Assembly (NCBI RefSeq): GCF_038066715.1
Contig: NZ_JBBUKT010000004.1
Location: 186,001-250,000 of the forward strand
Direction of reading: 5' to 3'
Origin: Luteolibacter sp. Y139
Lineage (GTDB): Bacteria; Verrucomicrobiota; Verrucomicrobiia; Verrucomicrobiales; Akkermansiaceae
DNA: 64,000 bases
In this document: positions 1 through 6,785 of the stretch, in pieces
Layout: each line of letters opens with the position of its first letter
How positions within the stretch are numbered: position 1 is the first letter of the stretch
Position numbers and translations under genes: made by a program
Notes under the pieces: model-generated
Told to the model about the DNA's origin: nothing
The model's input: only the letters and a program-made list of their open reading frames with translations
Databases searched by the model: none

Positions 1-643
1 GACGTCCGGCGATCCACAGCGCGATGAAGGCAATCACCGCGGACACGCCGGCGAGCATCCATACGCGATCATCATCTCCGGCGTGGAAGCTGCGGTAGAT
101 GGCGAGAGGGATGGTTTCCGTGACACCGGGGATGAGGCCGGCGACCATCATGGTGGCGCCGAATTCACCGAGGGCGCGGGCGAAGCCGAGCACGAGGCCG
201 GCGGCGATGCCGCGGCGGGCGAGGGGGACGCTGACGCGGGAGAAGACTTGCCATGGGGTCTTGCCGAGAGTGGAAGCGGCTTCTTCCAAGTGACGCGGCA
301 CTTCCTCGAAGGCCGTGCGGATGCAGCGGAGCAGGAGCGGGAAGGCCATGATGGCGAGGGCCAGCACGACGGCCTTCCAGGTGAAGATGATCTCAATGCC
401 AGATCGTTCTAACAGCGCGCCGAAGGGCCCTTTCTTTCCGAAGAGCTTCAGAAGCACCAGGCCGGTCACCACGGGTGGCACCACCAGTGGCAACATGACC
501 AGCGTCTCAACGAACGCCTTGCCCGGCCACTGCTTGCGGGCCAACAGCCAGCCAAGCGCGAGGCCGAAGGGCAGCGACAGGACGATCGCCGCCGCGGAGA
601 CGCCGAGCGTGAAGAGGATTAGCCTGAAATCGTCCGCCGTCAT
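1..643 (-). CDS. modB: Molybdate ABC transporter permease (3'-truncated by window edge)
   Basis: Inner-membrane permease that moves molybdate/tungstate delivered by ModA; it would pair with a ModC ATPase, expected beyond the left edge. Reading the minus strand from the ATG at 641-643 gives 214 codons (MTADDFRLILFTLG...). Hydrophobic spans are followed by the permease EAA loop (EEAASTLGKTPWQVF) and the ModB-typical GEFGAT. The sequence runs off the window, so the last helix is missing. The modA stop codon (644-646) abuts this start with no gap, so the two are co-transcribed and probably translationally coupled. Identification as ModB rather than a sulfate permease rests on the modA neighbour and the ModE-like regulator nearby. 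Confidence 0.92.
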   Translation of the reverse strand, partial: MTADDFRLILFTLGVSAAAIVLSLPFGLALGWLLARKQWPGKAFVETLVMLPLVVPPVVTGLVLLKLFGKKGPFGALLERSGIEIIFTWKAVVLALAIMAFPLLLRCIRTAFEEVPRHLEEAASTLGKTPWQVFSRVSVPLARRGIAAGLVLGFARALGEFGATMMVAGLIPGVTETIPLAIYRSFHAGDDDRVWMLAGVSAVIAFIALWIAGR

Positions 644-1372
644 TTATTCCTTCGCGAGCCCGAAGCCGCGGGCCGTGAAGATCTTCGACGCTTCTTCCGA
701 TTTCAGGAAGTCTGCAAATTTCTTTGCCTCATCCGCCTGCTTGGTGGCGGTGCAGACGGCCACCGGGTAGATGATGGCGGGGGCCTCGCCGGCCGGGACG
801 GTCCAGGCAACCTTCACCTTCTTCGAGACGGCGGCGTCGGTCTTGTAGACGATGGCGGCGTCGGCATTGCCAGCTTCGACGGCGGCGAGGGCGGCGCGGA
901 CGTTTTCGCTGCCGACGCACTTGGGGCCGATGCTTTCCCACAGGCCTTGCTTGGTGAGCCAGTTCTTGGCGTAGACGCCGGCGGGGACTGCCACGGGATC
1001 GCCGATGGAGATGCGCTTGAAGTTCGCGAGATCAGAGCCGCCGGAGACCTTGGCTTCGGATTCGTTGGGCACCACGACGACAAGTGCGTTGGTGAGGAGC
1101 TTGGTGACGTTATTCACCAGCTTGGCCTCCTCGACCTTCTTCATGTTCGCCTCGTCGGCGGAGATGAAGACATCGATGGGCGCGCCTTCCTCGATCTGGC
1201 GGGCAAGGACGTTCGATGCCGCCAGCACCGGGGTGATCTTGGTGCCGTTCGCCTTCTCATAGGCGGCACCGACTTCCTTGACGGATTCAGCGAGGCTGGC
1301 GGCGGCGGCGACGCGGAGTTCACCGGCCGCAGCGGCCAGCGAGGCGAACAGGAGAAGAAACAGGGATTTCAT
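644..1372 (-). CDS. modA: Periplasmic molybdate-binding protein
   Basis: Solute-binding component of the ModABC molybdate importer, 242 aa, the usual family size. An N-terminal signal peptide (MKSLFLLLFASLAAAAG) is followed by the family pattern LRVAAAASLAES, and then by PIDVFISAD and IGDPVAVPAGVYA, all ModA hallmarks lining the oxyanion site. It is the first gene of the modAB operon and lies downstream of the TonB-dependent receptor gene, with an 85-nt gap that contains a ModE-like dyad (1405-1428). Repression at high molybdate is therefore expected. The assignment is firm; whether tungstate is also bound cannot be told. Confidence 0.95.
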   Translation of the reverse strand: MKSLFLLLFASLAAAAGELRVAAAASLAESVKEVGAAYEKANGTKITPVLAASNVLARQIEEGAPIDVFISADEANMKKVEEAKLVNNVTKLLTNALVVVVPNESEAKVSGGSDLANFKRISIGDPVAVPAGVYAKNWLTKQGLWESIGPKCVGSENVRAALAAVEAGNADAAIVYKTDAAVSKKVKVAWTVPAGEAPAIIYPVAVCTATKQADEAKKFADFLKSEEASKIFTARGFGLAKE

Positions 1373-1404: not shown

Positions 1405-1428
1405 CGATATCACCATGAATAGATATTG
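1405..1428 (-). promoter_or_regulatory. ModE-like operator upstream of modA
   Basis: A 24-bp dyad with half-sites CGATATC and GATATTG separated by 10 bp, ending 32 nt before the modA ATG. Length and CG-flanked AT-rich half-sites match the dyads at 3426-3449 and 5298-5321, and resemble the known E. coli ModE operator (CGTTATAT...ATAACG). The site lies where a promoter would be, so it would act by repression. The role is inferred. Confidence 0.7.
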
Positions 1429-1457: not shown

Positions 1458-3404
1458 TCAGAACTCGTAGCGAATGTCGCCGAAGAAGGTGCGGCCGGGT
1501 TCCGGGAAGCCTTCGTCCAGCTGCTGATTGCGATCGAGAATGTTGAGGACGCCGAAGCCGAGCTTTACGTCGCCGGGCAATTCGACCTCGGCCTTCACGT
1601 CGGCGGACGCGTAGATGCCGACGCGCTTGCCGGTGCTGGAGACCACGCGCGAGTCCGACCAGGTGAAGGACGGGATCAGGCGGAGGCGTTCCATGAGATC
1701 CAACTTCGAGAAGAGCGTCACCTCGTGCTCGGGGACGTTGATGATGCTGATTGCCGGGTTGGTGCGGTTTTCCGCGGAGATCCACGCGTAGTTGAAGCCG
1801 GCCTGGATGGTATCGGTGAATTTCGAAGCCATCGCGAACTCGAAGCCGCGGTGCTCGACCTCGCCGACATTCTGGAGCTGGAAGAGCCCGGCGCCTCCGG
1901 GAGTGAAGGCGACATTGTCGACGCGCTGGATGGCATCATCGATGCGGGAGAAGAAGAGGTTCGCTTCCCATTCGATGCGCTTGTCATTGGCCTTGCCGCC
2001 GATGCCGAGGTCGAAGTGATTGACGGTTTCAGGATCGAGGTTCGGGTTCGGGATCGCTTGGCCGAGGCGATACGAGTAGCGATCCTTGATGGTGGGGAAG
2101 CGGCTCTTTTCCGCCCAGCCGAGGTGGCCTTCAAGGCAATCGTTGAACTGCTGGCGATAGACGAGCTGCGGATTCCATGAGGAGTTCTTGTCGCCGTAGA
2201 GCGGGGCTCCGCTGTTCGTGTCGACGGCTTCTCGGATATCGCGCCAGTCGTAGCTGACGCCGCCGGTCAGGGAGCCGCCCTGGCCGAAGTCGTATTCTGC
2301 TTCGAAGCCAACGGAGGCGGTCTCGTCTTCGAAGGTGTAGGTGGGAGCGCCGAGGTTCGTCTCCTCGTGGTGATCCCGCTCGTAGTGGACCGCGGCGGCG
2401 AGGCGGGTGTTCTTCAGCGAGCGATTCTCGATGGTGGCGGAGGCGCCGGCGATCCAGTCGTCGTAGTAGGAATTGAAGGTGTAGCCCTTGGTCTGGGACG
2501 AGTAGGTCGCGTCGTCGAAGGAGCGGAGCAGGTTCTGGAAGGTGTCGTAGTGCCACTTGGTCTCCAGCGTGGTCTCGGTGCCGAGCGCGGTGCGGGTGAG
2601 GATGTAAACGGTGTCCTTGTCCCAATACGGCCATTGCCAGAAGCGTGGCGCGACCTTCTTGTCGTAGCCGGCATAGGGTGGTGTGCCCTTCTCGCCGCGC
2701 TGCGACCAGAAGCCGAGGACGTATTCATCGTCAACGGCCGGCGTCCAGCCGATGCGACCGGAGACGTGCCAGTCCTCGCTGTAGGAGTTGTTGCGGCGGC
2801 CGCCGTTCTCGGTGGGACGAGGAACGAAATCATCGGACAGCGGAAAGGCGCTGCGCTCGATCCAGGAGAGGTCGAATTGCCAGTAGAACTTTTCCTCGCG
2901 GCCGCCCGCGCTCAGGCCAGCGTCCCAGCCATCGCCGGAGAAGGCACCGGCGTGGACGGCGCCTTCCAGCTTCTCGGTGGGGCGGCGGGTGAAGACGTTG
3001 ATGAGGCCGCCGAGGGTGTTAGGTCCCGCGAGCACGGGGCTGATGCTCTTTGCCACTTCGATCTCGCCGGCTTCCGGCATCAGGAAGCGACCGAGGTCCG
3101 CGTAGCCATCGTAGGGGACATAAACGGGGATGCCATCGATGTGCAGCGGCACCTGGCGCAGGTCGAAGCCGCGCACGGTGACCATGCTCTCGGCACGTGC
3201 GCCCATCCGGGTCAGGCTGACGCCCGGCAGGAGATCCAGCGATTCCGCGAGATTGCGGCGCTCGAAATCCTGCACCTCCTCAGCGGTGATCCGGTGGGTG
3301 ATGCCGGGCTTCATGGCCTCGACGACCATTTCACCGAGTTCCGTCTCGGAAGTGGCCGCGGAAGCGGCGAGGGGAGCGAGGCAGAGAAGGGGAAGTGCTT
3401 TCAT
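1458..3404 (-). CDS. TonB-dependent outer-membrane receptor, probable molybdate/tungstate uptake
   Basis: 648-aa TonB-dependent receptor. There is a signal peptide (residues 1-17), then a plug domain (about 30-150) with AESLDLLPGVSLTR, VTVRGFDLRQVPLHIDGIPVY and GGLINVFTRRP. A 22-strand-type barrel follows, ending in FFGDIRYEF with the terminal aromatic residue expected for outer-membrane insertion. Substrates of such receptors are usually iron chelates, cobalamin or metals. Here the context is unusual: modA-modB lie immediately downstream, and a ModE-like dyad (3426-3449) ends 21 nt before the start codon. I infer an oxyanion (molybdate/tungstate) or molybdophore substrate. Alternatives are a siderophore receptor that is merely co-located. 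TonB/ExbBD are not in the window. Confidence 0.9.
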   Translation of the reverse strand: MKALPLLCLAPLAASAATSETELGEMVVEAMKPGITHRITAEEVQDFERRNLAESLDLLPGVSLTRMGARAESMVTVRGFDLRQVPLHIDGIPVYVPYDGYADLGRFLMPEAGEIEVAKSISPVLAGPNTLGGLINVFTRRPTEKLEGAVHAGAFSGDGWDAGLSAGGREEKFYWQFDLSWIERSAFPLSDDFVPRPTENGGRRNNSYSEDWHVSGRIGWTPAVDDEYVLGFWSQRGEKGTPPYAGYDKKVAPRFWQWPYWDKDTVYILTRTALGTETTLETKWHYDTFQNLLRSFDDATYSSQTKGYTFNSYYDDWIAGASATIENRSLKNTRLAAAVHYERDHHEETNLGAPTYTFEDETASVGFEAEYDFGQGGSLTGGVSYDWRDIREAVDTNSGAPLYGDKNSSWNPQLVYRQQFNDCLEGHLGWAEKSRFPTIKDRYSYRLGQAIPNPNLDPETVNHFDLGIGGKANDKRIEWEANLFFSRIDDAIQRVDNVAFTPGGAGLFQLQNVGEVEHRGFEFAMASKFTDTIQAGFNYAWISAENRTNPAISIINVPEHEVTLFSKLDLMERLRLIPSFTWSDSRVVSSTGKRVGIYASADVKAEVELPGDVKLGFGVLNILDRNQQLDEGFPEPGRTFFGDIRYEF

Positions 3405-3425: not shown

Positions 3426-3449
3426 CGTTATATTTCTAAAAGTATAACG
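3426..3449 (-). promoter_or_regulatory. ModE-like operator upstream of the TonB-dependent receptor
   Basis: The best of three similar dyads: perfect half-sites CGTTATA and TATAACG separated by 10 bp, 21 nt upstream of the receptor start codon. It matches the remembered ModE consensus closely. The flank on the right side (to about 3488) resembles the flank of the dyad at 5298-5321. Confidence 0.78.
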
Positions 3450-3499: not shown

Positions 3500-4750
3500 C
3501 TATTGAGCGTTTTGGAGAAATGCCTCACGGGCCTCGGGGAGGGTTTCATTGAGGATAGCGAGGATCTTCCGGCGTTCCTCGGGTTCCAGGTAGGCGTAAC
3601 GTTCCCCGGCTGTGCCCCCCTGCAAGGCGGTGTGAAGGCGCTCGAAGATCAGTGTTTTGAGCGGGGAAGGCAGGGCTGAGAATGACTCCGAATAGATCAG
3701 GAAGCTGCAGCGATTGGCGAACAGGCGGTCGCTGTTGGAGAAGTCCTTGAGGGAATCGCCGTCGCTGGTGCGCGGAGTGTTGGAGGAAAACGCTTCGCGG
3801 AAGGTCTCGCTGATTTCGATGCCGCCTGGCAGGGGCGCGGCACCTCTAAACAGCAGGTGATCGACGACTTCATCGGCGATGCTAGCGAGGGGAGATTGCG
3901 TCGCTTCCGGATCGGCTGCCGCTTCCATCAGCGCGCGGCGGGAGCGATGGGACGCGCGCGTGAGGACATTGTGCATGGTCACCTGATGCTGGAAGACGAG
4001 CAGCGCGCCGGCATCGCTGGTGGCGGCGAGGTATTTCGAGGTGTCGAAGAACTCGGTGAGATCGGTGGGACGTATGGGGCTCGGGGTTGGGTTTGGCTGG
4101 TTGTTGAAAGCATTGCCGAGATGATCGGCCATGCCGGTGTAGCCGGTCACATACCAGCCACCCCAACGCTGCGCGAAGGGTGTGGCGTCATCGGTGAGTT
4201 GGAAGGCCTGGCCCGCCACGGTCTCGCCGCGCTCGGTCGCTGCGACGCTGCGCGCGATCAAGGACGGGATCTCGCGGCCGGTTTCGCCGCCGTGACAGCG
4301 CAGGCACTCGGTTTCCCGCACGAAGGTCCGGCGGTCATTGCGCGCGTCCTGTGGATCGAGGGAGTAGTAGATGGGCCCGAGTTCGGCATCGATCGAGGCA
4401 ACCTCAATGAGTCCACCGGGCATCCAGCCGACGTAGATCGAGTCGGAGAAATACAGGGCCCGCGGATTGCGAGGATCGATCAGTGAGCCCTGCAGGCTGG
4501 TCTTGGAGAAGACGACGATCTGGCTTTCGACGGGGACGTTGAGTTCCTGCAGGACGGCCCGGAGGATCTCGGCATCGGTGCCTTTGAAGGAGACTTCGTG
4601 AGCTTCGATTTTTTTCAGGAGGCGCGCGACGGCGTCGTCCGGCTTGCGGCTGGAATACTGGATTGGTGGCAATTCATAGGCTGACTTCCGGGTCTGTGCA
4701 TTGCCTGCGGCGAGCGATGCGGCCAGGAAGCAGAAGAGGACGCGTTTCAT
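3500..4750 (-). CDS. Secreted mono-haem c-type protein of unknown function
   Basis: 416 aa with a signal peptide (MKRVLFCFLAASLAAGNAQ) and one haem-binding motif CLRCH at residues 149-153, so it should be a periplasmic c-type cytochrome. The regions around the motif (DPQDARNDRRTFVRETECLRCHGG, split by me into short motifs: LDPQDARND, TFVRETE) and the later HQVTMHNVLTRASH and RCSFLIYSESF strings recur in a conserved uncharacterised planctomycete/verrucomicrobial family, as I recall it. It starts 9 nt after the stop of the sulfite-oxidase-fold gene, so the two form an operon under the dyad at 5298-5321. I infer an electron-transfer partner for a periplasmic enzyme; no substrate can be named. 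A hairpin (3496-3511) overlaps the stop codon. Confidence 0.82.
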   Translation of the reverse strand: MKRVLFCFLAASLAAGNAQTRKSAYELPPIQYSSRKPDDAVARLLKKIEAHEVSFKGTDAEILRAVLQELNVPVESQIVVFSKTSLQGSLIDPRNPRALYFSDSIYVGWMPGGLIEVASIDAELGPIYYSLDPQDARNDRRTFVRETECLRCHGGETGREIPSLIARSVAATERGETVAGQAFQLTDDATPFAQRWGGWYVTGYTGMADHLGNAFNNQPNPTPSPIRPTDLTEFFDTSKYLAATSDAGALLVFQHQVTMHNVLTRASHRSRRALMEAAADPEATQSPLASIADEVVDHLLFRGAAPLPGGIEISETFREAFSSNTPRTSDGDSLKDFSNSDRLFANRCSFLIYSESFSALPSPLKTLIFERLHTALQGGTAGERYAYLEPEERRKILAILNETLPEAREAFLQNAQ

Positions 4751-5297: not shown

Positions 5298-5321
5298 CGA
5301 TCTATTTGCGAAAGGATATCG
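5298..5321 (-). promoter_or_regulatory. ModE-like operator upstream of the sulfite-oxidase-fold gene
   Basis: A 24-bp dyad, half-sites CGATCTA and GATATCG with a 10-bp spacer, 43 nt before the start codon at 5254 and 15 nt after the modE-like stop. It shares length, end bases and central T/A tracts with the sites at 1405 and 3426. It is the most degenerate of the three. Confidence 0.6.
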
Positions 5322-5699: not shown

Positions 5700-5749
5700 G
5701 TCTCCATGCTGGCCAATTGCCCGGCGATCGGGCAAGAGAATCGGTGGCC

Positions 5750-6785
5750 ATGGATTATCGCGAGCACGCCATCAACCGGGACTGGTCCGCGGAGGGCAAG
5801 ATCGACTTGCTGCGGCAGATGATGCGGATCCGGCGATTCGAGCAGCGGGCCTTGCACTACTACAACGGAGGCAGAATTGGCGGCTTCCTCATCCTGAGCA
5901 TCGGGCAGGAATCGGTGTCGGCGAGCGTACGATCTCTGATGGGACCCGAGGATCACGGGATCAGCGGGCCATGCCATTGCGGCGGGCCTGCCAATGGGAG
6001 CGGGGATGGCAGAGCTTTTTGGAAAGACCAATGGCTGCTCGAAAGGGAAGGGCGGGATGTTTTCTTTCTACCATCCGCTGGGGAATCACTGGGGTTGCCA
6101 TGCAACTGCCGCCGGGCAGACGCCTCTGGCGGCAGGGCTCGCCTTTGCGCTCAAGCAACGGGAGATCGCCGGGGCGGTGGTGTGTTTCCTGGGTGATGGT
6201 GCGGTGAATCAGGGCGTGTATCACGAGTCGCTGAATCTTGCCGGTTTGTTCGGGTTGCCGGTGGTCTATCTGATCGAGAACAACGGGTACGCGATGGGCA
6301 TGTCGGTGTCGCGTTCATCGCGCTTCAAGGAATGCCTTGCCCGGCGCGCTGAAGGATACGACATCGATTGGGACAGATGCGGCGATGGGGATATCTATCA
6401 GCTCCGCGCGAAGGTCTGGACGGCGCTGGAACGAGCGCGGCGCGAGAGGCGGCCGACGGTGCTGGAGGTGGAGACGTATCGCTACTACGGCTTCACGGTG
6501 GCGGACGCGAATGCCAAGAAGTATCGGACTGTCGACGAGATCGAGGAGCGGAAGAAGCGGGATCCGCTGAGGCTTTGGCGGCAGCACTTGCTTGCCGAAG
6601 GGATTCTCAGCGAAGCGGCTGCGGAGGAGATCGATTTGCGGGCGAAGGATGAGGCGAGCGAGGCGGCGAAGTTTGCGGAGGCGGGAGAGGCTCCGACGGT
6701 CGCGGAAATCGTTCGCGATGTTTATTGGGAATCCGATCACGATACCGAGGCCTCGCGGATCGGGCGCCATTTCTTCGGTGAGTAG
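5750..6785 (+). pseudogene. pdhA: TPP-dependent dehydrogenase E1 alpha subunit (pyruvate dehydrogenase type), frame disrupted
   Basis: The N-terminal part reads from ATG 5750 (MMRIRRFEQRALHYYNGGRI, IGQESVSASVRSLMGPEDH). The C-terminal part continues in the +1 frame (GHAIAAGLPMGAGMAELFGK, then the TPP motif GDGAVNQG...VVYLIENNG, and ANAKKYRTVDEIE) to the stop at 6783-6785. Both halves belong to one E1 alpha chain of about 345 aa. Between the DH of the first half and GHA of the second only 10 nt are present, where the family (from memory) has about eight residues, so a net loss of about 14 nt around 5957-5966 is likely. No E1 beta or E2 gene follows; it ends just before a convergent LysR gene. 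Either a real pseudogene, a decayed paralogue, or an assembly error. Confidence 0.8.

Follow-up and report, generated by a model that had tools for sequence, protein, structure and literature searches.

The uptake of molybdate by Gram-negative cells is generally taken to be passive, by diffusion via porins. An operon of Luteolibacter sp. Y139 in which the gene of a TonB-dependent receptor (TBDR) adjoins modA and modB raises the question of whether molybdenum or tungsten is brought across the outer membrane by an energised receptor of its own. We propose that the TBDR is likely to be such a receptor, dedicated to Mo/W acquisition, because it is intact, its gene shares an operon with modA-modB and is preceded by a ModE-type operator, and the arrangement is conserved across phyla. 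Transport, energisation by TonB and Mo-dependent expression are inferred from sequence alone.

An intact receptor gene in a molybdate transport operon

The features of the locus are listed in Table 1, with positions counted along the window, i.e. the whole 64-kb stretch of DNA that was analysed.

Table 1 Features of the Y139 receptor locus, in window coordinates
Feature	Position	Strand	Evidence or remark
ModB permease	1..643	minus	BPD_transp_1; 3' end beyond the window, full ORF at L004:9975-10643
ModA, molybdate-binding protein	644..1372	minus	TIGR01256 189.7 bits vs cut-off 62.5
ModE-type operator, 1 mismatch	1405..1428		before modA
TonB-dependent receptor (TBDR)	1458..3404	minus	Pfam Plug + barrel; AlphaFold2 model; homologues linked to ModE boxes
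ModE-type operator, perfect core, CGTTATATTTCTAAAAGTATAACG	3426..3449		ends 21 nt before TBDR ATG
Secreted 416-aa protein, one CxxCH heme-c motif	3500..4750	minus	no Pfam match
Small secreted SUOX/PruR-fold protein, 164 aa	4760..5254	minus	PF00174 (Oxidored_molyb) 27 bits; AF2 pLDDT 92
ModE-type operator, 1 mismatch	5298..5321		before SUOX/PruR-like (164-aa) gene
ModE-like regulator, DNA-binding domain only, 120 aa	5337..5699	minus	TIGR00637 69 bits, E 2e-19

The receptor ORF starts with ATG and encodes 648 amino acids without internal stops, i.e. it is intact. Its product matches, above the cut-off in both cases, the Pfam Plug (PF07715, 5.6e-15) and TonB_dep_Rec barrel (PF00593, 7e-27) domains, and AlphaFold2 models it as a plugged barrel (pLDDT 89, pTM 0.90). 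A signal peptide and a TonB box were sought by eye only, the candidate stretch being MKALPLLCLAPLAASA followed by ELGEMVVEA.

The operon runs, in 5' to 3' order, from the modE-like HTH gene through the SUOX/PruR-like and heme-c-motif genes to the TBDR, modA and modB. All five residues that bind molybdate in E. coli ModA are conserved in Y139 ModA. No modC adjoins modA-modB, and no ModC scores above the curated cut-off in the genome of Y139 or of three relatives; in all four (G000, which is Y139, G251, G178 and G243) the ATPase partner of ModA-ModB is unidentified. The best "modC" candidate in the Y139 genome was rejected, being PotA inside a polyamine operon.

The ModE-like regulator scores under the curated cut-off of its family model (98.5 bits), and a domain search detected no TOBE/Mop domain anywhere in the Y139 genome. 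The HTH-only protein is thus left without an obvious molybdate sensor, and how Mo would be sensed is unexplained. The model of the 164-aa protein superposes on the Moco domain of sulfite oxidase (PDB code: 3hbg; Z 18.0 over 133 residues) and on the PruR pterin-binding proteins (7rkb and 7kp2; Z ~16). Its annotation as a "molybdopterin-dependent oxidoreductase" is doubtful, since it has no Cys in the region of the Moco-ligating Cys and none is conserved there in its main subgroup. Homologues of the 416-aa CxxCH protein are absent from the other 85 receptor loci described below. Adjoining modE, an E1 dehydrogenase-like gene (5748-6785, plus strand) is seemingly split over two reading frames near 5970-5994, and it is likewise in pieces in two relatives (L033 and L034).

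ModE-type operators

The consensus of E. coli ModE, ATCGNTATATA-N6-TATATANCGAT (PMC545781), provided the search core CGNTAT-N12-ATANCG, which the box in front of the receptor fits with zero mismatches. If up to one mismatch to this core is allowed, the 7.1-Mb genome of Y139 contains 79 sites; three of them fall within the present 3.9-kb span, vs 0.044 expected (Poisson p ~1e-5). The other four perfect matches in the genome were taken as chance, three for their GC-rich look and an AT-rich one (L005) for its position within an ORF. A version of the box with a spacer of 10 has no match in the genome, the correct spacer being 12. Control of the TBDR by ModE through its box is an inference, for which there are no expression data.

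The earlier note had described a full-length TonB-dependent receptor placed between modA-modB and other Mo-linked genes, with the best ModE-like operator 21 nt before its start. All three statements held; the strand, which was omitted there, is minus.

Conservation of the link between receptor and molybdenum

At a threshold of E 1e-40 or better, receptor homologues are present in 13 of 387 Verrucomicrobiota genomes, and in 11 of these 13 loci modE adjoins the receptor, mostly with a box. ModE itself was detected in 33 genomes of the 387, namely in 12 of the 13 with the receptor vs 21 of the 374 without it (Fisher p 2e-13, only indicative as the genomes are related).

A wider set of 86 loci comprises the best 80 from an 84,980-species collection and six more, chosen on receptor similarity alone and blind to Mo; they are spread over Verrucomicrobiota, Bacteroidota, Gammaproteobacteria and deltaproteobacterial lineages. 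In 41 of them a perfect ModE box is found no more than 500 bp upstream (~0.3 expected), while only seven perfect boxes occur elsewhere in the same loci (1.11 Mb). These boxes depend on a spacer of 12, other lengths giving 0 or 1. A variant, CAGTAT-N12-ATACTG, which is used by the Flavobacterium loci, occupies the same position in 20 further loci, again with spacer 12 only, so that a palindrome of ModE geometry is found within 500 bp upstream in 61 of the 86. Either the palindrome or a modE gene is present in 77 loci; nine have neither. The loci are related, hence the counts are not independent. In a Desulfuromonas locus without box or modE (L129), a full-length Moco-II RNA (L129:4829-4872, 61 bits vs cut-off 35) precedes the TBDR operon, a second, unrelated Mo-type control element in the place of the ModE box. 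Other family members without a ModE box (L042, L115, L120) lie with DUF364, FecCD, ATPase, Peripla_BP_2, TrmO, SBP_bac_6 and CobW-type GTPase genes.

The same linkage is found in well-studied bacteria. A receptor with 32% identity to the TBDR is encoded last in an E. coli operon (SBP-FecCD-ATPase-methyltransferase-ModD-receptor), present in 2102 of 5426 complete genomes (~39%). The ModD of this operon scores 504 bits, and a perfect ModE box lies 48 nt before its first gene; the box of CFT073 is likewise perfect, with a sequence that differs slightly. Proteus mirabilis (L152) has the same operon as E. coli (L140, L144) with its own perfect box, and on a P. aeruginosa plasmid the receptor and a perfect box are found with a small Oxidored_molyb-type gene, moaA and narIJH.

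As comparative genomics, these data show that the receptor is linked to the regulation and transport of Mo/W across several phyla far more consistently than chance would allow, and that ModE box, variant box and Moco-II RNA are interchangeable carriers of this link. The reading in the earlier note of the protein as a molybdate/tungstate (or molybdophore) receptor is supported at this level; the form of the ligand is not narrowed.

Iron and cobalamin as alternative ligands

A referee may object that the TBDR is merely one more receptor for iron siderophores or vitamin B12 which adjoins modA by accident. In favour of this, the protein is generally similar to heme, B12 and siderophore receptor models, and the partner of the receptor in the E. 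coli operon is currently annotated as an iron ABC transporter (iron transport). Against it, the scores are low, 85 bits on the BtuB model TIGR01779 (cut-off 599.7) and 78 bits on the siderophore receptor model TIGR01783 (cut-off 223.5), and ModE boxes accompany the receptor loci across phyla. No Fur box was found beyond chance (the best match, 12/19, is equalled by 13% of shuffles), nor did Rfam detect a cobalamin riboswitch in the window or in 21 loci. We consider this alternative, which the earlier note had named as iron or cobalamin limitation and which finds no support in the sequence, very unlikely. For the enteric homologue, identity with the fit iron system of E. coli was weighed and rejected, as fit comprises two permeases and fitR (PMC2593036).

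A quick tree separates the TBDR family with full support from BtuB, CirA, FepA, PqqU, FhuA and FecA, the outgroup branches being long. Two placements within the family deserve mention. In L044 (G254, a genome of the same family as Y139) modE and the box are like those of Y139, while the receptor groups with alphaproteobacterial plasmid receptors, an apparent replacement of the receptor in place. A contig labelled Thalassovita (L064) falls among the Dyadobacter-type receptors and is probably misbinned.

Gene neighbourhoods and the form of the ligand

The neighbours supported by family models are TupA, ModA, a TOBE-domain ModE, a second TOBE protein, MoeA, FmdE, ModD, the DHOR and CCP_MauG heme proteins and Peripla_BP_2 (the TupA and MoeA matches fall under the NCBIfam equivalog cut-offs); ModB and MolBCA-like transporters are also among the neighbours, and ExbB/ExbD genes stand beside the receptor in some relatives. 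They form two alternating modules. In the periplasmic one, the 164-aa-type protein occurs in 65 loci, a heme protein in 37 and both in 34, sometimes with modAB or modABC. In the cytoplasmic one, a SAM methyltransferase (14 loci) is often found with a BtuF/FecCD ABC importer, FmdE, MoeA or a dedicated ExbBD-TonB. Heme protein and methyltransferase occur together in none of the 86 loci. In Kiritimatiellae-like operons, a conserved membrane protein of 350 aa that matches no Pfam family (L037:7031-8083 and relatives) is encoded between the methyltransferase and ExbB.

We propose that, under Mo scarcity, the ModE-like repressor would leave its operators and the receptor would capture Mo/W species at the surface, passing them into the periplasm with energy from TonB-ExbBD. 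There, the pterin-binding-fold protein, joined in many relatives by a heme peroxidase, would accept or degrade the ligand, and molybdate would pass to ModA. Elsewhere among the relatives, the receptor would supply a BtuF/FecCD-type (MolBCA-like) ABC importer, and the ligand would enter the cytoplasm to be handled by the methyltransferase, ModD, FmdE or MoeA. Several points speak against a dedicated Mo/W role: the regulator has no domain for binding molybdate, the genome is without a TOBE domain, no ModC passes its cut-off, nine of the 86 loci have neither box nor modE, and the receptor fold fits OprC and FecA equally.

Within this reading, three forms of the ligand can be envisaged. The receptor may import bare molybdate or tungstate too dilute for diffusion through porins, as the OprC/ZnuD class does for unchelated metals, which is possible. 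The receptor is paired directly with the oxyanion-binding ModA in Y139 and with TupA/ModA in Methylophaga, and a Foldseek search with its model returns the copper receptor OprC as top matches, with ZnuD also scoring highly. However, the model aligns with Z 34-38 over 525-579 residues to OprC, FecA, BtuB and CirA alike, OprC and FecA tie (Z 37.5 vs 37.3) and BtuB is only slightly lower (35.7); fold comparison does not separate the ligand classes and names no ligand. Moreover, the SUOX/PruR-type partner in most of the family and the methyltransferase module in others would be needless for a bare anion.

Alternatively, the ligand may be a Mo/W chelate (a molybdophore, e.g. a catecholate made by the bacterium itself or by another microbe) that is opened by periplasmic redox enzymes or modified in the cytoplasm. 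The solved receptor nearest by sequence is the catecholate receptor CirA, followed by siderophore receptors and BtuB, and either the CCP_MauG/DHOR heme enzymes or the methyltransferase, never both, accompany the receptor. Against this, CirA is only remotely similar (130 bits), and no chelator-biosynthesis genes were seen adjoining the receptor in the loci read. We regard the chelate as possible, marginally more so than the bare anion. In the mutual exclusion of heme protein and methyltransferase we see a weak indication that the ligand is complexed and not the bare oxyanion, and the pterin-binding-fold partner and heme peroxidases may hint the same way, without distinguishing oxyanion, chelate and molybdopterin-type compound.

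The third form, which we regard as unlikely, is salvage of Mo/W as a pterin compound that other cells have shed, either Moco or products of its breakdown. The Cys-less SUOX/PruR-type protein would then bind the pterin in the periplasm and the heme peroxidases would free molybdate for ModA, an equally unlikely assignment for which there are no pterin-binding data.

Implications

No Mo/W TonB-dependent receptor has been reported in the literature that we searched, and a 2024 review of TonB-dependent transporters mentions neither molybdenum nor tungsten; subscription journals and regulon databases were outside the search, and earlier notice is not excluded. If the dedicated Mo/W role is correct, environmental bacteria and the E. 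coli strains that carry the operon scavenge these metals across the outer membrane by an active, energised and perhaps chelate-based process, and the present labelling of these operons ("iron ABC transporter / TonB receptor") needs correcting. The receptor is then a named, easily deleted gene of well-studied bacteria with which to ask for which chemical form of Mo bacteria compete.

Comparison with known systems

OprC, FecA, BtuB and CirA share the plug and barrel fold with the TBDR but differ from it in sequence (13-20% identity), in belonging to a separate clade, in their regulators and in their ligands (Cu, Fe or B12). The only published claim of a dedicated outer-membrane route for molybdate that we found concerns the H2-T6SS ModA-IcmP system of P. 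aeruginosa (PMC8602904), in which, unlike in the present proposal, ModA is secreted, the outer-membrane protein IcmP is of the metalloproteinase type and no TBDR is involved. PruR shares its fold with the 164-aa partner, but the identity is only 18-24% and pterin binding by the partner is without data. The H. influenzae molybdate importer MolBC-A (PMC4031551) is a BtuF/FecCD-type ABC importer, as are those that accompany the receptor in its deltaproteobacterial and enteric relatives, a likeness of family type only, drawn without sequence comparison.

A further parallel is modABC of E. coli under ModE. Unlike the Y139 locus, the K-12 operon is without an outer-membrane receptor; E. coli ModE has molybdate-binding domains whereas the Y139 protein is HTH only, and modC is not in the Y139 operon. 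Common to both are the ligand residues of ModA and ModE control, inferred in Y139, through operators of the same geometry (CGTTATATTGTCGCCTACATAACG in K-12), the K-12 box ending 19 nt before the modA start vs 21 nt for the box of the Y139 receptor.
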